Source: Novosphingobium barchaimii LL02 (GTDB lineage: Bacteria; Pseudomonadota; Alphaproteobacteria; Sphingomonadales; Sphingomonadaceae). From it: DNA of 64,000 bases. The stretch lies in NCBI RefSeq assembly GCF_001046635.1, contig NZ_KQ130452.1, forward strand, positions 608,668 to 672,667, in the 5' to 3' direction. The notes under the pieces were generated by a model. The model searched no databases. It saw only the letters and a list, made by a program, of their open reading frames with translations, and was not told the DNA's origin. Both the position numbers and the translations under genes were made by a program. This document shows positions 35,779-45,192 of this stretch, piece after piece (position 1 is the stretch's first letter; each line of letters starts with the position of its first letter).

Positions 35779-37584
35779 TCAGGTAAGCGCGTAAATCGCC
35801 GCGCACGTCGCCACGCCGACGATGATGTTCATTGGCAGGCCGATCTTGACGAAATCGGCAAAGCGGTAGTCGGCGGCGGCATAGACCATAGTGTTGGTCT
35901 GGTATCCTATGGGGGTCGCAAAGCTGGCGGAGGCAGCGAACATCACGGCGATCACGAGCGGGCGCGCATCGACGCCGCTTTGCCCGGCGATGCCGATCGC
36001 GATCGGGGTCATGATGACGGCTACCGCGTTGTTGGTGACCGTCTCGGTCAAGGCGGACGTAGCGGCGTAGATGGCAAAAATCAGTGCCAGAGGCGGTAGG
36101 CCGTCCATCCATGGCGAAAGGGTATCAACGATCAGCTTGACGCTTCCGGCTTTCTCTAGTCCGAGCCCGAATGCCAGCATCGCAAAGATCAGGACGATGA
36201 CGTTGCCGTCGATGGCCGCCCACGCCTCTTCGGCATCCAGACATCTCGTCGCGAGCACGATGGCCACGCCAAGCAGCGCAAAGGCGTAGACCGGCATCAC
36301 GTTGAACGCGGCGCCAAGGATGACAAGGGCCAGGGTCAGCGCGGCGATGGGCGCCCGGTGGCGGCGGTAGCGCCGCACCCCGCTGGTATCCTCGGCGATG
36401 AAATTGGCATTTTCCCGCAACTCCGAAGCCGCCTGGTCGTCTGCGGCGACCAGCAGGCTGTCGCCAGCCCGCAGACGCGCGTTTGCAAGGTCCGGCCCGG
36501 CGAGATGGCGCGGACGGCTAAGGCCAAGAACGCGCACGCCAAGGTTGGACAGGAAGGGTATCTCCCGCATCCGGCGACCGATCGCCGGGTGGGTTGGCGC
36601 CAGTGTGATCCCCACCATTCTTACAGCTTCGTCGCGTTCGTCATGGGCAAGCCTGATCGGTCGGCCGACATTCTGCAGCCCGACCATGAAATCGTGGGAC
36701 CGCGCCAGAGCATCCAGTTCGTGAGCGCTCGTGGCCACAATGATTCGGTCGGACGATAGAATCTCCTCACCTGCCGACACGTTGCGAACGACCTGCGAGC
36801 CGCGCTTGATCCCGACCACCTTCACGGCGCCGCGCCGCAGAGCACCGAATTCGCTGAGCGGGCGGCCCGCGGCGCCGTGGAACGTCGGAAGGAGCTCAGT
36901 GATGTACTGGCGATCGCTATCCACATCGAGTTCGTCGTCGGGCCGGTTGGGCAGGAGTTTGGGTCCAAGCAGTAGAAGTGTGAGGCCGCCGCTCAGGAGG
37001 GCGACCGCACCCACGGCGGTGATTTCGAAAATGCCGAAAGGCGCAAGACCGCTTTCTTGGGCAACGCCGTCCACCAAAAGGTTGGTGGATGTACCGACGA
37101 GGGTCAGCGTGCCGCTCAGTATCGCGAGGTAGGACAGCGGGATCAGCAACCGGGTCGCGGCGATGCCCACGGTGCGGCCCAGCTTCTTGACCAGCGGGAT
37201 CAGGACCATGACGACCGGCGTGTTGTTGATGAACGCCGGCGCGAGCATGGCCGTGCCCATCAGTTCGGCCACCGTTCGTCGCGGCCGCTCCCGCGCGCGG
37301 GCTATCATGAGGCTGGCCAATGCTTCGATCGCGCCCGTCCTGATCAAGGCGCCGGACAGGATGAAGAAGGCGGCGATCGTGATCGGCGCTGGATTGGAGA
37401 AGACGGTGAGAACGTCCGCTGGGGCCAAGATTCCGGTCCCGAGCATCAGTGCGGCGCCGATCAGGGCGATCACGACAGGCGGGAAGCGCTCGAGGGCGAA
37501 GGACACGAACAGCAGCACAACCATGACGAGGCCGACAAACGGCTTGGCGTCGTGCCAGATAGACATCAAACCGTCGGGGGACAT
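35779..37584 (-). CDS. SLC13-type (Na+/anion) permease with TrkA-C domains
   Basis: This 601-residue transporter has two membrane halves (residues about 15-205 and 385-600) split by two cytoplasmic RCK/TrkA-C domains (about 215-375). LSGTLTLVGTSTNLLVDG near 154 and TETVTNNAVAVIMTPIAIG near 514 are the repeated substrate/sodium-binding loops of the divalent anion:sodium symporter family. Such hybrids transport sulfate, citrate or other dicarboxylates, and substrate choice cannot be read here. It lies between nhaA and the DUF2254 gene. Confidence 0.88.
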   Translation of the reverse strand: MSPDGLMSIWHDAKPFVGLVMVVLLFVSFALERFPPVVIALIGAALMLGTGILAPADVLTVFSNPAPITIAAFFILSGALIRTGAIEALASLMIARARERPRRTVAELMGTAMLAPAFINNTPVVMVLIPLVKKLGRTVGIAATRLLIPLSYLAILSGTLTLVGTSTNLLVDGVAQESGLAPFGIFEITAVGAVALLSGGLTLLLLGPKLLPNRPDDELDVDSDRQYITELLPTFHGAAGRPLSEFGALRRGAVKVVGIKRGSQVVRNVSAGEEILSSDRIIVATSAHELDALARSHDFMVGLQNVGRPIRLAHDERDEAVRMVGITLAPTHPAIGRRMREIPFLSNLGVRVLGLSRPRHLAGPDLANARLRAGDSLLVAADDQAASELRENANFIAEDTSGVRRYRRHRAPIAALTLALVILGAAFNVMPVYAFALLGVAIVLATRCLDAEEAWAAIDGNVIVLIFAMLAFGLGLEKAGSVKLIVDTLSPWMDGLPPLALIFAIYAATSALTETVTNNAVAVIMTPIAIGIAGQSGVDARPLVIAVMFAASASFATPIGYQTNTMVYAAADYRFADFVKIGLPMNIIVGVATCAAIYALT

Positions 37585-37650: not shown

Positions 37651-38844
37651 TCACCATACGCTTGCCGCAGCCTTTGACTTTTCCCGGTCCGCCAGGCGCA
37701 ATACGGTATAGCCCAGAAGCCCCGAGAGCAGGGAGCCTGCCATGATCCCGATCTTTGCCTCGGACTGGAGGATAAGGTCTCCCGGAAAAGCAAGAAGCGC
37801 GATGAACAGGCTCATCGTGAAGCCAATCCCACATAGCAAGGCGATGCCGAACATTTGCAGCCGGCTCGCATGAGCGGGCGCATCCGCCAGGCCAAACCGG
37901 ATGGCAGCCGCCGACATCCCAAAGACGCCCACCGGCTTGCCAAGCAGCAGGCCGAGCGCCACGCCAAGGGTTACCGGCGCCGCCAGCGCCTCAGCGGGCA
38001 ACTTCAGCACGGGTACGCCAGCGTTGGCGAGCGCAAAGAGTGGCACGATCAGGAAGCCGACCGGCAGGTGGAGAAAATTCTCGAGCCGGTGAAGCGGGCT
38101 GGTCGCATCGACGTCGGACCGGCTCGGCGTAATCTCCATCGGGATTGTCAGCGCCAAGACGACGCCGGCCAGGGTCGCGTGAATTCCGGAGCGGAACACG
38201 AATACCCAAAGCAGCGCGCCCAGCAGGAGATAGGGCGTCAGGCTCCTCACTCGGAAGCGATTGAGCGCGACGAGCGCCGCCACTACTCCGCCCGCGCAGG
38301 CAAGGTCGACTACCGAAAGATCGGCGGTATAGAACATTGCGATGATGATCACCGCGCCTAGGTCGTCGATGATGGCGAGTGCGGCAAGGAAGATGCGCAG
38401 GGAGGCCGGAACCCGATTCCCCAACAGTGAGATGACCCCTAGCGCGAAAGCGATGTCGGTGGCGGCCGGGATCGCCCATCCGCGCGCCGTCGCGCCGGTA
38501 TTGAAGGCATAGAACAGCAGCGCTGGCACCGCCATTCCTCCTGCGGCGGCGATCCCGGGCAGGATCCGACGCGACCACGTGGACAACTGGCCGTCGAGCA
38601 TCTCGCGCTTGATCTCCAGCCCGACCAGCAGGAAAAAAACTGCCATCAGGGCATCGTTGATCCAGTGGGCCAGAGAAAGCGGCCCCAGATAGATGTGCAG
38701 AACCGCCTCGTATGTCCTCGCGAGCGGAGAGTTGGCGAGCACGAGCGCCACTGCTGCCGTAGCCATGAGAACAAGACCGGCGGAAGACTGGCTGTGCAAA
38801 AAGCGACGGATTGCGCTGATGCGCATGCGTGGGGTGATGGCCAT
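37651..38844 (-). CDS. nhaA: Na+/H+ antiporter NhaA
   Basis: NhaA expels sodium in exchange for protons across the inner membrane. The 397-residue protein has the family blocks [19 protein letters not shown] near residues 69-87, [19 protein letters not shown] near 123, [20 protein letters not shown] near 153 with the paired essential Asp, and [15 protein letters not shown] near 336. The start is ATG at 38844. The 320-bp gap to the next gene (38845-39164) contains no supported feature. Confidence 0.96.
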
Positions 38845-39164: not shown

Positions 39165-39482
39165 ATGAACGTCAAGAAGCTTTCGACACGCATGGGCGCG
39201 ACCCTGATGGCCGCGACCATGATCGTCACTCCGGCCATGGCAGGGGTCAACGGACGGCAGGCGAACCAGCAGCAGCGCATTGCGCAAGGGTGGCGCTCGG
39301 GTGAGTTGACCGGGCGTGAGACGGCGCGACTGGAACGCCAGCAGCATCGCATCCACCGCACCGAACATCGCATGCGCGAGACCGGCGGGATGAACCCGCG
39401 CGAGCGTGCACGGCTGCATGCCCGTCAGGATCGGGCAAGCGCCAACATCCGCCATCAAAAGCATGACGGGTGGCGGCACTGA
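39165..39482 (+). CDS. Small basic exported protein
   Basis: This 105-residue protein has a Sec signal peptide (MNVKKLSTRMGATLMAATMI, cleavage near AMA-GV). The mature part is about 80 residues, rich in Arg, Gln and His, strongly helical, with repeats of the type TARLERQQHRIHRTEHRMRE. There is no Cys in the mature part. GAGGTGA sits five bases before the ATG at 39165, which excludes the longer in-frame reading from 38844. The stop overlaps the EF-hand gene as TGATG. It is the first gene of a seven-gene rightward string. The function is unknown. Confidence 0.8.
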   Translation: MNVKKLSTRMGATLMAATMIVTPAMAGVNGRQANQQQRIAQGWRSGELTGRETARLERQQHRIHRTEHRMRETGGMNPRERARLHARQDRASANIRHQKHDGWRH

Positions 39483-39871
39483 TGCGCCGCCTGGCCATCC
39501 TTGCCCTCCCGGTCGCGCTGCTTCCTGTCGCAGCTCTGGCCGCTCCCGCGTCCGCCAAGGCCGAAGGCATTGGCAAGGTCGAGTTCCAGACCGCGCTGCG
39601 CAGCCGGATGATGCGGGCGGATACGGACGGTGACGGCCGTGTCAGCGCCGTTGAATGGTCCGCCGCCGCCAAGGCGCGGGGCAGGGGAGCAATGGCGGAT
39701 CGCGCCTTCGCGCGAATGGACGCGGACGGCAGCGGCTTCCTTGAAGCCACGGAACTGGATGCGCTGGCAACGAAGCGGTTCGACCGGCAGGATGCCAACC
39801 ACGACGGTCGCCTGTCGGCCGACGAGCGCAAGGCGATGATGGATGCCATGCGGGAGAAGGCTGGCGATTGA
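39482..39871 (+). CDS. Exported EF-hand calcium-binding protein
   Basis: This 129-residue protein has a signal peptide (MRRLAILALPVALLPVAALA) and three EF-hand loops: DTDGDGRVSAVE near residues 47-58, DADGSGFLEATE near 80-91 and DANHDGRLSADE near 103-114. All three keep the Asp/Glu calcium ligands in positions 1, 3, 5 and 12, except Asn or Ser at some inner positions. It should bind calcium in the periplasm. It overlaps the genes on both sides, so it is translated as part of the sigma-factor operon. Confidence 0.9.
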   Translation: MRRLAILALPVALLPVAALAAPASAKAEGIGKVEFQTALRSRMMRADTDGDGRVSAVEWSAAAKARGRGAMADRAFARMDADGSGFLEATELDALATKRFDRQDANHDGRLSADERKAMMDAMREKAGD

Positions 39872-40434
39872 GCGGGATCGGCGACAGCCACGATCCGGAT
39901 GCGGAACTCGTCCGGCGCGTCGTGCAAGGCGATGCGGCAGCGGCGCGGCGCATGGTCGCGGCCAAGCTGCCCCGCCTGCTCGCGCTGGGGACCCGCATCT
40001 TGGGCGATGTGGCTGCGGCGGAGGAGATCGCGCAGGAAAGTCTGCTGCGATCATGGCGGCAGGCGCCGGGCTGGCGCTTCGGTGCAGCGCGGTTCGATAC
40101 CTGGCTCCATCAGGTGGCGCTCAACTTGTGCCGCGACCGGCTGCGCAAGCGGAGGCGCGAGACGCTGACCCCGGAGCCGCCCGAGCGTATCGACCCGGCA
40201 CCGCTGCCGGATCAGGCGCTGGCGAGCATGGACGAAAACCGGCGTATCGAACGCGCGCTGCAGGCGCTGCCGCCGCGCCAGCGCGAGGCGATCGTGCTGC
40301 AGTATTATCAGGAACTCTCGAACGCGGATGCGGCGGCCTTAATGGAGATAAGCGTGGAAGCTCTGGAAAGCCTGCTGTCGCGCGCCCGGCGCGCCTTGCG
40401 CGAACTCTTGCTGGAAACGGACGATGACGCCTGA
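39868..40434 (+). CDS. ECF RNA polymerase sigma factor
   Basis: This 188-residue ECF sigma factor has region 2 with DVAAAEEIAQESLLRSWRQA near residues 47-66 and FDTWLHQVALNLCRDRLRKR near 75. Region 4 has LPPRQREAIVLQYYQELSNADAAALM near 135-160 and EALESLLSRARRALRELL near 165. The most likely start is a TTG at 39868 overlapping the EF-hand stop as TTGA, with GAGAAGG seven bases upstream; no ATG lies near the N-terminus. The anti-sigma candidate follows with an 11-bp overlap. Confidence 0.9.
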   Translation: MSGIGDSHDPDAELVRRVVQGDAAAARRMVAAKLPRLLALGTRILGDVAAAEEIAQESLLRSWRQAPGWRFGAARFDTWLHQVALNLCRDRLRKRRRETLTPEPPERIDPAPLPDQALASMDENRRIERALQALPPRQREAIVLQYYQELSNADAAALMEISVEALESLLSRARRALRELLLETDDDA

Positions 40435-40840
40435 ACGCCTGTCACGCATATTGGCCGCCTACGGCTCCAGCCCCGAGCGCTGGCCCGGCGATGAGCGGGA
40501 GGCGGCCACGCGGCTGCTGGCGCAGGTTCCCGATGCGCAAGCTCGCGCGCGAGAGGAACAGGCGCTTGATGCTCTGCTGGCGCGACATCGCATCCCCGCC
40601 CCTCACGCAGCGCTGGTCGGGCGGACGCTGGCGGCATTCGCGCCGGTTTCCGGGCTTTCGGTTCTGCGCAGCTGGTGGGCGCGGCTGGCCCTGGCGGGCG
40701 CGGCGATTGCTGGCATTGCTGCAGGCATGCTGACGCTCGACGTGCAGCATGGACGTGTGGCGAACCGGCAGATGCTGGCCTTATCCGACGATCAGGACAC
40801 GATCTTCGCATCGCTCGATACCGGCGAGGTCACGCCATGA
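40424..40840 (+). CDS. Membrane-anchored anti-sigma candidate
   Basis: This 138-residue protein has a cytoplasmic N-terminal half (RLSRILAAYGSSPERWPGDERE then a helical stretch), one membrane helix near residues 87-105 (LALAGAAIAGIAAGMLTLD) and a short periplasmic tail. Its position right after an ECF sigma gene, with overlap, and its one-helix layout fit an anti-sigma factor, as CnrY is for CnrH. There is no zinc-binding HxxxCxxC motif. Assignment is from context and topology, not clear homology. The stop overlaps the next start as ATGA. Confidence 0.7.
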   Translation: MTPERLSRILAAYGSSPERWPGDEREAATRLLAQVPDAQARAREEQALDALLARHRIPAPHAALVGRTLAAFAPVSGLSVLRSWWARLALAGAAIAGIAAGMLTLDVQHGRVANRQMLALSDDQDTIFASLDTGEVTP

Positions 40841-41313
40841 AAGGGCGCGGTTTCCAGATCCTGCTGGTCTGCTCGCTGGTCCTCAACGTATTCATGATCG
40901 GCGGGCTGGTCGGCGCGGGTGTCATGTGGCAGCGCGCCGAGGTGCAGCCTCCGGTGAACGGCCTGGGCCGCGCCGGGCGCCTGCGCATGGCGGCCCAGGA
41001 CCTGCCTCAACCCTATCGCCGAGACCTGCGCCGCACGGTGGTGGAAACCATGCGCACGCTCAAGCCCCAGCTCGGCGAGGCGCGCGCGGCCCGGCGGGAG
41101 GCGGCCCGGCTTCTTGCACAGCCCACGCTCGACCAGGCTGCGCTGGATGCCACGCTGGCGCGCGGCCGCGCCGCAGACAGCGCCGTACGCACCCGCTTGG
41201 AGGCAAGCATCGCCGGTTTCGCTGCTGGATTGCCGCAGCAAGAGCGCTTGCGGCTGCTCGAGGCGTTGACACGCCAGCAGCCGCGATCGCCCGGACACGA
41301 GAAGCGGCCATGA
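40837..41313 (+). CDS. CnrX/Metal_resist-like periplasmic sensor protein
   Basis: This 158-residue protein has an N-terminal membrane anchor (FQILLVCSLVLNVFMIGGLV) and a periplasmic four-helix hairpin domain. The block DLPQPYRRDLRRTVVETMRTLKPQLGEARAARREAARLLAQ near residues 54-94 is typical of the heavy-metal resistance (CnrX/CzcX-like) fold. The periplasmic domain has no Cys, and its only His is next to the C-terminus, so the usual nickel/cobalt ligands are absent. It overlaps both neighbours and completes a sigma/anti-sigma/sensor trio. Confidence 0.75.
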   Translation: MKGRGFQILLVCSLVLNVFMIGGLVGAGVMWQRAEVQPPVNGLGRAGRLRMAAQDLPQPYRRDLRRTVVETMRTLKPQLGEARAARREAARLLAQPTLDQAALDATLARGRAADSAVRTRLEASIAGFAAGLPQQERLRLLEALTRQQPRSPGHEKRP

Positions 41314-42692
41314 CCATTGCCATCGCGCTTAACCGCTTTGGACTCGGCGCACGTCCCGACGAGACCTTGTCGCGCGACCCGAAGGGCTTCCTGCTCGACC
41401 AATTCGGCCGTTACGAGGCACTCCCTCCGGCCTGGGCGACCTTGCCGGGCAGCCAGGCGATCGCGGCCGGCTATATCGCCGAGCGACAGGAGGTGCGATC
41501 GACGCAGGGCGACGCCAAGCAACGCGCCCGCATCGACCTGCGCAAGGATGGCCGCGATATCCTGCGCGTTGCCGCGAATGCCCGCGCGGTCAGCGCGCTG
41601 ACGACGCCGACCCCATTCGTCGAGCGGCTGGTGCATTTCTGGTCGAACCATTTCGCGATCTCGGCTGACAAGCAGACGGTGATCCCCTTCGCTGGCGCAT
41701 TCGAGGCCGAGGCGATCCGTCCGCACGTGCTGGGCCGGTTCGAGGACATGCTGCTCGCGGTAGAGCGGCATCCGGCGATGCAACTCTTTCTGGATCAGGC
41801 GCAGTCGGTTGGCCCCGGCAGCGCGTTCGCTCGCCGTGCGACTAGCCGCGATCCGAAGAAGGCGCCCGGGCTCAACGAGAACCTCGCGCGCGAGATCATG
41901 GAGCTTCACACGCTGGGCGCCCGTACCGGATACACCCAGGCCGACATAACCGAGTTCGCCCGTGCTCTCACGGGATGGAGCAGCGTCGGGCTGGGCCGGG
42001 GCGGCAAGGTGCGCGCGGGGGCCGGGGATCCGGGCAGCTTCGTGTTCAGGCCAATGCTGCACGAACCCGGGACGCGCACGATCATGGGCCGCAGTTACGC
42101 CCAGCAAGGCGAGGGGCAGCCACTGGCGATCCTTGGCGAACTTGCCGCCGCGCACTCCACGGCCGACCACATTGCGACGAAGCTGGCGCGGCATTTCGTT
42201 GCGGACGAACCGCCACCTGCATTGGTCGCCCGTCTCTCCGCTGCGTTTCGCGAAAGCAGTGGCGACTTGCCGGCCGTCTATCGTGCGCTGGTGGTAGCGC
42301 CTGAAAGCTGGGCGCCCACCCTGGCGAAGTTCAAGACGCCGTGGGAATGGCTGATCTCCTCGATGCGCGGCCTGGGTATGAGTGATGCCAACGAGATTCA
42401 GGTCGCGGGCGTTATGCAGCAACTGGGGCAGCCGGTGTGGCGCCCCGGATCGCCCGCCGGGTTCGACGACGTGGCGGCCAGTTGGGCCGCGCCCGATGCG
42501 CTCGTGCGCCGCGTCGAAATGGCGCAGCGCCTGACGGTGCGCGCAACTGGAGCAATCGATCCACGCGAACTGGCGCCAAAACTTCTGCCCGGAAACCTGG
42601 CCCCCGCGACGGCGCAAGCGATCGCGCGGGCGGAAAGCCTGCCGACCGGCCTGGCGCTGCTGCTGGTATCGCCGGAATTCCTGAGGAGGTGA
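41310..42692 (+). CDS. DUF1800 family protein
   Basis: This 460-residue protein has the DUF1800 blocks: ALNRFGLGARPDE near residues 6-18, ERLVHFWSNHFAIS near 106, PGLNENLAREIMELHTLG near 187-204, YTQADITEFARALTGWS near 209 and KLARHFVADEPPP near 291. These proteins are almost always paired with DUF1501, as here. The biochemical function is unknown. I see no signal peptide. The ATG overlaps the previous stop as ATGA, and the DUF1501 gene starts two bases after its stop. Confidence 0.9.
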   Translation: MTIAIALNRFGLGARPDETLSRDPKGFLLDQFGRYEALPPAWATLPGSQAIAAGYIAERQEVRSTQGDAKQRARIDLRKDGRDILRVAANARAVSALTTPTPFVERLVHFWSNHFAISADKQTVIPFAGAFEAEAIRPHVLGRFEDMLLAVERHPAMQLFLDQAQSVGPGSAFARRATSRDPKKAPGLNENLAREIMELHTLGARTGYTQADITEFARALTGWSSVGLGRGGKVRAGAGDPGSFVFRPMLHEPGTRTIMGRSYAQQGEGQPLAILGELAAAHSTADHIATKLARHFVADEPPPALVARLSAAFRESSGDLPAVYRALVVAPESWAPTLAKFKTPWEWLISSMRGLGMSDANEIQVAGVMQQLGQPVWRPGSPAGFDDVAASWAAPDALVRRVEMAQRLTVRATGAIDPRELAPKLLPGNLAPATAQAIARAESLPTGLALLLVSPEFLRR

Positions 42693-42694
42693 TC

Positions 42695-43834
42695 ATGACG
42701 TATTCGCGCCGCCATGCCTTGCGCAACATCGCCGCCGTCGGAGCGGGGGCTCTCTTCTGCCCGCGCATCGCCTTTGCAGCCGTGCCGGGAGACCGGCGTT
42801 TCGTCTTCGTGATCCAGCGCGGCGCGGCGGATGGGCTGAACATCGTCGTGCCCCATGGCGATCCCGGCTATGCGGCGGCGCGGGGCGCTCTGGCCATAGA
42901 CCCGGCAAATATGATCAAGCTCGATGGCATGTTCGGGCTTCATTCGGCGCTGAAGGAAACCGGCAGGATGTACGCCGACGGGCAGGCGCTGGCGCTCCAC
43001 GCCGTCGCCTCGTCCTATCGCGAGCGGTCGCATTTCGATGGGCAGAATGTGCTGGAGACGGGCGGCAATCGGCCCTACGCGATCAAGGACGGGTGGATGA
43101 ACCGCCTTGTCAGCCTCATGCCGGGCACCCATGCCGAGCCGATCGCGTTCGCGCCGATTGTGCCGCTCGCCTTGCGCGGCGCGGCGCCGGTTACCTCCTA
43201 TGCCTCGTCGAGCCTCCCGCGCGCGACCGACGACCTGATGGCGCGGGTGGAGGGCCTTTATGCGAGCGATGCTGCGCTCCACGCCCTGTGGTCCGCCGCG
43301 ATGGCGACGCGCGCGCAGGCGGGCGAGGATGCCGGTGGGCAGGACCCGGCCGCGCTGGGGCGCCTTGTCGCGGGGTTCCTCGCCCGGCCCGATGGCCCGC
43401 GCGTGGCGATGATCGAAACCGGCGGCTGGGATACACACAGCGGCCAGGGCGGGCGAATGGCGACGCAACTCAAGCGGCTGGATGCGATGCTCGCCGCCCT
43501 TCGCGATGGCATGGGAACTGTTTGGAGCAAAACCATCGTGTTGGTGGCCACCGAGTTCGGGCGCACTGTGGCGGCTAATGGAACCGGCGGTACGGACCAT
43601 GGCACGGCCTCCGCCACGCTGCTGGTTGGCGGTGCGGTGCAGGGCAGGAAAGTGCTGGCGGACTGGCCGGGGCTGTCACCCGGCGCGCTGCACGAAGGAC
43701 GGGACTTGCGCCCGACTATGTCGCTGGAAGTCGTTATCGGCAATGTGCTCGCGCAAAGCTACGGCATCGATCCAGGCAAGCTCTTTTCGGCCACTAAGCC
43801 GATAGAGCACATCGGTGGTCTGTTGAGGAGCTGA
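42695..43834 (+). CDS. DUF1501 family protein with Tat signal
   Basis: This 379-residue protein has a twin-arginine signal peptide (SRRHALRNI then a hydrophobic stretch to about residue 29). The domain is of the sulfatase/alkaline-phosphatase-like DUF1501 type: VIQRGAADGLNIVVP near 39, LHAVASSYRERSHFDGQNVLE near 100, ETGGWDTHSGQGG near 243-255 and TEFGRTVAANGTGGTDHGT near 286. The Asp/His residues in the last blocks fit a metal site. It has AGGAGGTGATC before the ATG. It is the last gene of the string before the IS element. Confidence 0.9.
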   Translation: MTYSRRHALRNIAAVGAGALFCPRIAFAAVPGDRRFVFVIQRGAADGLNIVVPHGDPGYAAARGALAIDPANMIKLDGMFGLHSALKETGRMYADGQALALHAVASSYRERSHFDGQNVLETGGNRPYAIKDGWMNRLVSLMPGTHAEPIAFAPIVPLALRGAAPVTSYASSSLPRATDDLMARVEGLYASDAALHALWSAAMATRAQAGEDAGGQDPAALGRLVAGFLARPDGPRVAMIETGGWDTHSGQGGRMATQLKRLDAMLAALRDGMGTVWSKTIVLVATEFGRTVAANGTGGTDHGTASATLLVGGAVQGRKVLADWPGLSPGALHEGRDLRPTMSLEVVIGNVLAQSYGIDPGKLFSATKPIEHIGGLLRS

Positions 43835-43859: not shown

Positions 43860-44780
43860 TATAAGTGTCTGACTCAGAAGATAATCAAGCAAAGCAATAC
43901 CTTGCAGTTCGCCGGGTAAGCATGCGGATCGAGGCGATGGTCGCCCATGCGATCGAGGACGCGACGGTTGTCTCCCAATCCTTGGCGAGCCGGCGGCATC
44001 TGCCGAGCCATGCGAAAGTCCGTTCGACGACCCATCGGCGGGGGAGGACGTGGAAGCCCTTGGCCTTGTCGGACCGTTTGATGATATTGATCGTCCACGC
44101 TCCCGATCCGGCGAGTGCATTCCTGAGTTTGTCACCGGCATAGCCCCCATCGGCAAAAACATGCCGCAGCCACGGGAAGCGTTTCGCACGGCCTTGAGGA
44201 CATCGACGGCACCGTCGCGGTCTTGGATGTCGGCGGTGTGGACGAGGATGAAGATGAGAAAGCCGCAGGTGTCGGTCAGGATATGCCGCTTGCGGCCCTT
44301 GATCTTCTTGCCCGCGTCATACCCGCAAGGGCCGCCGCTTTCGGTGGTTTTCACTGACTGGCTGTCGATCACACCGGCGCTCGGCGAGGCTTCGCGCCCT
44401 TCGATCTCGCGTAGGTTCATCACGAGCACCGTGTTCATGGCCTCGAGCAAACCGGTGTTGCGCCAAGCGTAGAAATAGCGCTGCACCGTCGATACCGGCG
44501 GAAAGCACTTGGGCAGAAGCCGCCAGGCGCAGCCACTTGCCGCGATATAGAGCAAGGCATTCACAACCTCGCGCATGTCCGTCGTCCGACGACGGCCTCC
44601 ACGCTTGGCCGGTGGGATAAACGGCGCCGCCAATGACCATTCACGGTCCGTCATATCACTGGAATAGCGCAATCCTTTCCGGCTATGCTCCTGCCGGGCA
44701 ATACCAGTCCATGTCATTGATCGCTCCATCTCTCGCAGGACGGACTGAATCACAACATACTGGTATTGCTCAACAACTTT
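43860..44780 (-). mobile_element. IS5-family insertion sequence (ends not resolved)
   Basis: The element is recognised by its IS5-type transposase frame between DUF1501 and a VOC gene. I could not find convincing terminal inverted repeats or a target duplication. The limits given are estimates based on typical distances between transposase and IS ends. TGACTCAG near 43870 and TGATTCAG (minus strand, near 44750) are weakly similar and could be parts of the ends. Confidence 0.65.
43885..44717 (-). pseudogene. Frameshifted IS5-family transposase
   Basis: The first frame, MTWTGIARQEHSRKGLRYSS followed by DMTDREWSLAAPFIPP, is the DUF4096/IS5 N-terminus. It continues through AGVIDSQSVKTTESGG, with the first catalytic Asp, to AVDVLKAVRN. 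Near 44180 the reading passes to another frame: FPWLRHVFADGGYAGDKLRNAL with the second Asp, then RRWVVERTFAWLGRCRRLAKDWE with the catalytic Glu, ending at TGA 43885-43887. One base seems to be missing at the junction. This may be inactivation or programmed frameshifting; the position makes inactivation more likely. Confidence 0.75.
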
Positions 44781-44811
44781 CGGGGCGGGCTCTAAGGATT
44801 GAAGACGGATC

Positions 44812-45192
44812 TCAGCTGGCGACGCCATAGACGTCGAGCTTGCTGCCATCGGGATCGCGGGTGTAGGCGGCCAGGGCGCCGGGTGCCCATGGCCGGGGGC
44901 CAACCGCCCCCTCGTCGGGCGCGCCAAGTGTCAGCGCGGTTTCGTGAAATACGCGGACGGCAGCCTTGTTCGGCGCCGCGAAGCTGATCGTCACCCCGTT
45001 TCCGACGGTTGCGGGCTGTCCGTTGCGGGGCCGGGTGACCATGAAGCACGGTTCGCCATCCCCCCACATCGATGCGTTGTCCTCAAGATCGAGGAGGCGG
45101 GTCCAGCCAAGCGTGGCCAGCACCGCGTCGTAGAACCGGCGCGACCGTTCGATGTCGTTGGTGCCGACGGTGATATGCGTGAAGCCGCTCAT
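44812..45192 (-). CDS. VOC-family (glyoxalase-like) protein
   Basis: This 126-residue protein is a single vicinal-oxygen-chelate fold. HITVGTNDIERSRRFYDAVLATLG near residues 5-28 is the usual first beta-alpha unit, and AAYTRDPDGSKLDVYG near 108-123 ends the domain. The substrate is unknown. Its ATG overlaps the stop of the upstream NmrA-like gene by four bases, so the two are one operon. The IS element lies just downstream. Confidence 0.88.
   Translation of the reverse strand: MSGFTHITVGTNDIERSRRFYDAVLATLGWTRLLDLEDNASMWGDGEPCFMVTRPRNGQPATVGNGVTISFAAPNKAAVRVFHETALTLGAPDEGAVGPRPWAPGALAAYTRDPDGSKLDVYGVAS

Follow-up and report, generated by a model that had tools for sequence, protein, structure and literature searches.

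The 64,000-nucleotide stretch of Novosphingobium barchaimii LL02 analyzed here (contig NZ_KQ130452.1, positions 608,668 to 672,667; the window) carries a string of seven rightward genes, g1 to g7. In it a small exported protein (g1), an EF-hand protein (g2), an extracytoplasmic function (ECF) sigma factor (g3), a one-helix membrane protein (g4), and a CnrX-like periplasmic protein (g5) precede the pair DUF1800 (g6) and DUF1501 (g7). The string probably encodes an autoregulated, envelope-sensing transmembrane switch in which the sigma factor drives itself and the DUF pair. As one promoter pattern precedes both the sigma factor and DUF1800 in related genomes, the sigma factor very probably controls its own operon and DUF1800/DUF1501.

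Single-sequence searches of genome contigs with g5 found nothing and DUF1800 was therefore used as the query, the best 80 of 486 related stretches being taken as genome loci. The sigma factor is encoded in 74 of the 80, followed in the same order by a g5-like gene and DUF1800-DUF1501. Only in L035 and L060 among these 74 was g4 undetected. The 80 loci are mostly from Burkholderia and Paraburkholderia, with others from Trinickia, Cupriavidus, Delftia, Xenophilus, Methylophilaceae, other Burkholderiales, and two Sphingomonas (L052, L063). Six lack the sigma factor; L018, which begins at a contig end, and L071 show g5, and L001, L002, L047, and L079 encode no member of the sigma-g4-g5 trio. An Ensifer plasmid (L123) has the trio with DUF1501-DUF1800 convergent to it. 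The gene order recurs across bacterial classes more than by chance, and the string first described from the window alone is thus conserved in relatives.

The promoter was first recognized as a repeat in the DNA before DUF1800 of these relatives, with the general pattern GCGACGG-N16/17-CGTTNAA. We scanned the 80 loci for a strict form, GCGAC(A/G)G-N15-17-CGTTNA(A/G), and called a site P1 if it was on the same strand as the sigma gene and at most 1 kb upstream of it, or P2 if at most 260 bp upstream of DUF1800. Among the 74 sigma loci, P1 is present in 70, P2 in 68, and both in 65. The spacer is 16 at 80 of the P1/P2 sites and 17 at 60. Strict sites total 146 over the 80 loci, with six elsewhere than P1 or P2 and one in a reversed-sequence control. 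The window has a single strict site, P1 (0.04 expected per window from 100 dinucleotide shuffles). The shared ECF promoter motif looked for upstream of position 39165 and at other sites was thus found before the sigma factor and, in relatives, before DUF1800.

P2 is kept where DUF1800 is convergent to the trio (the Ensifer plasmid) and in L014, where DUF1800 lies kilobases off behind opposite-strand open reading frames (ORFs). It is absent in L012, L044, L066, L067, L069, and L077, and P1 in L073, L075, L077, and L080. In L066, L067, and L069 P1 can serve the whole string because DUF1800 runs on from g5 or overlaps it, an arrangement close to that of the window. In L002, L047, and L079 no strict site precedes DUF1800, and the genomes have no NF004113 match over the cut-off. 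A wider regulon was not found: in 16 genomes a 13-base pattern occurred 45 times and its reverse 17 times. A second site common to genomes G030 and G050 was dropped, as it appears inside a coding frame (L126).

The seven genes and the promoter of the window are listed in Table 1.

Table 1. Genes and promoter of the string, in window coordinates.
Feature	Coordinates	Strand	Basis
P1: ECF-type promoter, GCGACGG-N16-CGTTCAA	39082-39111	+	53 bp upstream of g1
g1: small basic exported protein, 105 aa	39165-39482	+	export by hydropathy and by eye
g2: exported protein, three EF-hand calcium loops	39482-39871	+	PF13202/PF00036 over cut-off (Pfam)
g3: ECF sigma factor, TTG start	39868-40434	+	NF004113/PRK05602; PF08281, PF04542
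g4: one-helix membrane protein, likely anti-sigma factor	40424-40840	+	conserved beside sigma factor; anti-sigma function inferred
g5: membrane-anchored periplasmic protein, predicted CnrX/CpxP/Spy fold without His/Cys site	40837-41313	+	
g6: DUF1800	41310-42692	+	PF08811, 3.3e-120
g7: DUF1501, Tat-like SRRxxL start (by eye), alkaline-phosphatase-superfamily-like model	42695-43834	+	DUF1501, 8.7e-31

All seven plus-strand frames of the preliminary description were confirmed, and one of its junctions was refined: g3 and g4 share an 11-bp overlap. The other junctions are TGATG (g1/g2), TTGA (g2/g3), and ATGA (g4/g5 and g5/g6), and g6 and g7 are 2 bp apart. The sigma factor scores 257.7 bits against NF004113/PRK05602, where the curated cut-off is 208, and belongs to this family. 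The three good calcium loops reported for g2 were borne out by Pfam and by the loop pattern; they are canonical and stand at residues 47 (DTDGDGRVSAVE), 80 (DADGSGFLEATE), and 104 (DANHDGRLSADE). In g4 there is one hydrophobic stretch, strongest near residue 89, and the N-terminus reads MTPERF..AYG..RWP. Hydropathy and inspection by eye place a hydrophobic stretch at the N-terminus of g1, g2, g5, and g7 and none at that of DUF1800. No Pfam family matched g1 or g4 over the cut-off, no plasmid or phage record resembled the window DNA, and no plasmid-encoded relative of g2 was found at E <= 1e-5. Three neighbors, read by eye, are on the minus strand: an apparent anion permease (35779-37584) and NhaA antiporter (37651-38844), both divergent from the string, and after DUF1501 an IS5-like transposase apparently split over frames (43874-44830).

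A low-confidence model of DUF1501 resembles enzymes of the alkaline phosphatase superfamily. D46, D246, H248, D301, and H302 are invariant in 24 sequences and are no more than candidates for a two-metal catalytic site. Against PDB sequences the DUF1800 profile had no match and the DUF1501 profile a single weak, unrelated one.

We also surveyed 385 alphaproteobacterial genomes for the sigma factor. A PRK05602-type sigma factor is encoded in 134 at E <= 1e-45 and in 79 over the cut-off; of the sigma places over the cut-off, 80 were retrieved, with G001, G230, G249, G532, and G501 left out. In 37 of the 80 regions the sigma gene is immediately preceded by an EF-hand ORF, counted from two loops up, and these upstream genes have 2-6 loops. 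The 80 regions hold only six further EF-hand ORFs, of which five are likewise close to the sigma unit. g4 was detected in 66 regions and g5 in 72, and DUF1800-DUF1501 follow in seven; of the eight regions in which g5 is missing, four stop about 800 bp or less from the sigma gene. In L223, L247, and L250 the EF-hand gene, sigma factor, g5, DUF1800, and DUF1501 are arranged as in the window (g4 undetected in L223). In L232 (4387-5028) an EF-hand protein follows the anti-sigma gene, the usual place of the CnrX-like gene.

The promoter core CGACGG-N15-17-CGTT, at most 1 kb upstream of the sigma gene, is present in 27 of the 80 loci, in 23 of 37 with an EF-hand gene versus 4 of 43 without (p = 8e-7). 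Elsewhere in the 1.6 Mb of strand scanned there were 19 sites, and the reversed control gave 3 of 80. In a FastTree phylogeny of the sigma factors, one 54-tip clade (support 0.93) includes all 27 core loci, 29 of the 37 EF-hand loci, the window, and 16 other relatives. The window sigma factor falls in a 19-tip subclade (0.98) with two EF-hand loci, Sphingomonas, Ensifer, and betaproteobacteria. The other eight EF-hand loci and the seven with an adjoining DUF pair are outside the 54-tip clade, on branches of mixed, in several cases weak, support. From this one tree we infer that EF-hand-sigma-g4-g5 under the promoter predates the link to the DUF pair and that the Burkholderiales replaced the EF-hand gene.

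In the 15 loci where the interval between P1 and the sigma gene was read, eight encode an exported WXXGXW-repeat protein where the EF-hand protein would stand (e.g. L020 5885-6184, L028 5796-6131), and several a very short lipoprotein-like ORF. PF12779 was confirmed in all three WXXGXW proteins tested. Delftia and Xenophilus have a short Tyr/Pro-rich ORF, and L003, L078, and L123 no clear gene. Among the 80 DUF1800 loci, phmmer and the loop pattern found an EF-hand gene before the sigma gene only in the two Sphingomonas; absent from the Burkholderiales loci, it was rejected as a general part of the module. As part of the conserved core g1 was likewise rejected. It has relatives in 15 of 196 Sphingomonadales genomes (19 places), and the exact core was absent from the 500 bp upstream of all 16 places checked. 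Unlike these, g1 relatives in Delftia do carry the promoter: in L012 (7352-7750) and L044 (10712-11110) a g1-like gene lies beyond DUF1501 on the other strand, with a promoter copy of its own no more than about 90 bp upstream.

DUF1800 is encoded in 102 of the 385 alphaproteobacterial genomes and co-occurs with the sigma factor above expectation (56 of 134 sigma genomes versus 46 of 251 others, uncorrected for kinship and genome size). Of 34 alphaproteobacterial sigma genomes, mostly with an EF-hand gene or the core, eight hold DUF1800, in ten genes. Five of the ten have the exact core at most 160 bp upstream of the domain start, four of them on other contigs than the sigma gene and one 30 kb from it. 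By these sequence counts the link between sigma factor and DUF pair is real in several lineages and not universal. In one alphaproteobacterial metagenome-assembled genome (G003; L085 2735 and L268) the EF-hand-sigma locus and an unlinked DUF1800 both have a variant promoter in which CGTG replaces CGTT.

The membrane proteins bear on what the unit may sense. g5 matches PF13801 (Metal_resist, 2.7e-22, Pfam), the family of CnrX, and its model takes the CnrX/CpxP/Spy fold with CnrX as the top structural match. It could accordingly belong to a metal-responsive Cnr-type system in which nickel, cobalt, zinc, or copper bound by g5 triggers the sigma factor. The Ni/Co site of CnrX consists of H42, H46, H119, and M123. 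This His-based site was not found in g5, as the preliminary description had held, and in a very weak hhalign alignment S124 and F128 stand opposite H119 and M123. That description had also reported no Cys and one terminal His, which is right for the periplasmic part, where only H154 in the tail occurs, but there is a Cys, C12, in the membrane helix. When the window g5 was aligned with 35 relatives, the only His/Cys column of at least 20% was a linker His present in 61% and absent from the window; nor do efflux genes adjoin the string. Among 71 other alphaproteobacterial relatives 36% have a His at the column of E122, so some may still bind metal, and only 5 of 72 are without His or Cys after residue 45. 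For the window we consider metal triggering very improbable. In searches of PDB sequences the g4 profile had no credible match and the g5 profile a weak match to Spy; phmmer with g5 returned mainly designed pentatricopeptide repeats, taken as composition artefacts. In Cupriavidus basilensis OR16 (L067 7392-9344) a CnrX-like domain and DUF1800 share one 650-codon frame, possibly a natural fusion or a sequencing error.

Calcium sensing by the unit is plausible. A 2026 article on Caulobacter vibrioides describes CaBP-SigV (CCNA_02838/CCNA_02837), an EF-hand protein and an adjacent ECF sigma factor; the EF-hand gene was induced by EGTA and acid, SigV overexpression raised its promoter to about three times wild type, and the authors marked the transmembrane link as unknown (PMC13171946). 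The window has the same layout, an exported three-loop EF-hand protein directly upstream of a PRK05602-family sigma factor. C. vibrioides was the only one of 14 control genomes to match NF004113 at E <= 1e-45, also over the cut-off (a genome-level match), and its genome has PF13801 and DUF1800 as well. A bolder reading, tentative and somewhat short of an even chance, is that ECF sigma factors gated by calcium form a widespread class, in which a periplasmic EF-hand protein would signal to a CnrX-fold sensor free of metal and to an anti-sigma factor with one helix. In the lineage of the window the class would drive the exported, phosphohydrolase-like DUF1501 together with DUF1800, and g4 and g5 would be the missing transmembrane link of CaBP-SigV.

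The same genes might instead form a general switch for envelope stress or misfolded proteins, g5 acting like CpxP or Spy and the first small gene (EF-hand, WXXGXW, or g1) encoding a regulated cargo or decoy substrate rather than a calcium sensor. Such a role fits poorly with EF-hand genes that recur immediately upstream of the sigma gene, accompany the promoter core, and in Caulobacter respond to EGTA (PMC13171946), and we regard it as rather unlikely.

In our preferred reading, the autoregulated switch, g4 would at rest hold the sigma factor through its cytoplasmic N-terminus, anchored by the one membrane helix. g5, as a membrane-anchored periplasmic sensor of the CnrX/CpxP/Spy fold without the metal site, would assist this hold, and the periplasmic g2 would report calcium or the envelope state to g5/g4. 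Falling calcium or a disturbed envelope would then release the sigma factor to read GCGACGG-N16/17-CGTTNAA, at P1 for its own operon and, in relatives, at the second promoter immediately ahead of DUF1800-DUF1501. The ATGA overlap may have drawn the DUF pair of the window into the operon, with P1 alone serving both. The predicted output is an exported DUF1501 of alkaline-phosphatase-superfamily-like fold with DUF1800 as its partner, and its target would be the envelope or a polymer at the cell surface. Gene order, conservation, and the promoter pattern are read directly from sequence and the g5 fold from a model; the anti-sigma role of g4, the sensor role of g5, the calcium input, export, and the enzymatic output are putative.

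Several results weigh against this reading. The promoter was counted in the same loci where it was first recognized, and most of the 74 sigma loci are from Burkholderia and Paraburkholderia; the P1 and P2 counts are therefore not independent trials. L077 has the genes yet neither P1 nor P2. In a wider test of one DUF1800 gene per genome in 95 of the 102 genomes, the core precedes DUF1800 in 3 of 7 genomes with a core-bearing sigma gene and in 5 of the remaining 88 (p = 0.012). These five comprise 2 of 26 genomes whose sigma factor is over the cut-off and has no core, 1 of 20 with a weaker one, and 2 of 42 with none; the reversed control gave 1 of 95. Left out because the match is late in the profile or a fragment were G238, G278, G465, G466, G536, G542, and G548; adding G536, whose late-starting match has no core, gives 3 of 8. 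G001 was represented by the paralogue L284 instead of its cluster copy, which carries P2. The DUF pair is therefore not the target everywhere. Within the Sphingomonadales, where g5 has a match in 32 of 196 genomes, we read 20 of 30 g5 loci with wider flanks. The co-occurrence proposed for this order stands for the sigma factor (19 of 20) and g4 (14 of 20), but 19 of the 20 regions are without the EF-hand gene, the DUF pair, and the core, and the string of the window is thus rare in those tested. L408 alone has an EF-hand gene and the core site. With single sequences, hhalign matched neither g4 to CnrY, which is short, nor g5 to CnrX.

The calcium input is also weakened by some of this evidence. 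None of the Burkholderiales loci among the 80 has the EF-hand gene, against 37 of the 80 alphaproteobacterial loci; of the calcium- or envelope-sensing unit first proposed to control the DUF pair, the control is very probable and the calcium signal plausible. According to the Caulobacter article, a CaBP deletion had an EGTA profile similar to wild type and excess calcium likewise raised the promoter, so that a simple sensor of calcium depletion does not fit (PMC13171946). The behavior of the deletion under EGTA slightly lowered our confidence in the calcium-gated class. The same source reports cabp and sigV as separate, monocistronic transcripts with an internal sigV promoter, and its authors read both promoters as SigT-like (PMC13171946).

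That last point would suit a promoter belonging to another sigma factor, such as the general stress factor EcfG, with the local sigma factor having other targets. The EcfG consensus is GGAAC-N-CGTT, and its -10 CGTT is common to EcfG-type promoters and P1; the core before DUF1800 in 2 of 42 genomes without this sigma factor points the same way. Yet the -35 CGACGG differs from GGAAC, the core tracks this sigma clade and occurs in betaproteobacteria, and three genomes without a close sigma factor have no exact core before DUF1800 (one has the CGTG variant). We find this assignment quite improbable.

DUF1800 and DUF1501 are common, and the few papers found give them no settled role or regulator. 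A conserved promoter with its likely sigma factor allows the timing of their production to be approached directly, and offers a first testable regulator. With an EF-hand gene found repeatedly next to one ECF sigma family, bacterial sensing of external calcium becomes testable with a reporter, and g4 and g5 are candidates for the link that the Caulobacter model marks with a question mark and that is possibly missing from bacterial calcium signaling. If its model is right, g5 has the CnrX fold and must respond to some signal other than metal at the known site. No description of this module was found in the literature searched, which leaves most subscription journals outside its coverage, and an earlier one is possible. 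The hypothesis is not wholly new, the Caulobacter pair having been published in 2026, but the DUF pair and the CnrX-fold protein are not named in the accessible part of that article (PMC13171946).

Compared with CnrYXH and NccYXH of Cupriavidus, the window has the same relay build of an ECF sigma factor, a one-helix partner, and a membrane-anchored protein of predicted CnrX fold. The layout of CnrH-CnrY-CnrX initially seen in the trio does not extend to gene order, which on pMOL28 is cnrY-cnrX-cnrH, followed by resistance-nodulation-division efflux genes, whereas the window reads sigma-g4-g5-DUF1800-DUF1501. Its output is not a nickel/cobalt efflux pump and its g5 is without the His site; CnrH and the window sigma factor are 31% identical over 140 aligned columns. 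With CpxP, Spy, and ZraP g5 shares, in its model, the periplasmic helical hairpin, but it keeps an N-terminal membrane helix and adjoins an ECF sigma gene, while CpxP and ZraP go with two-component systems. The DUF1800-DUF1501 pair also forms one operon beside bacterial chitin synthases, where DUF1501 has a twin-arginine motif and no sigma module is mentioned in the accessible text (PMC5122149). CaBP-SigV is like the window in having an exported three-EF-hand protein (133 aa versus 129 aa for g2) directly upstream of an ECF sigma gene. Its printed promoter, GGAAA-N13-CGTTCA, would fit CGAC-GGAAA-N13-CGTTCA, in the -10 and spacing only, as the -35 flank is outside the printed part. Unlike the window, CaBP-SigV comes with no anti-sigma factor, CnrX-fold protein, or DUF pair named in the part of the article available (PMC13171946), and g4 and g5 are candidates for its membrane link.

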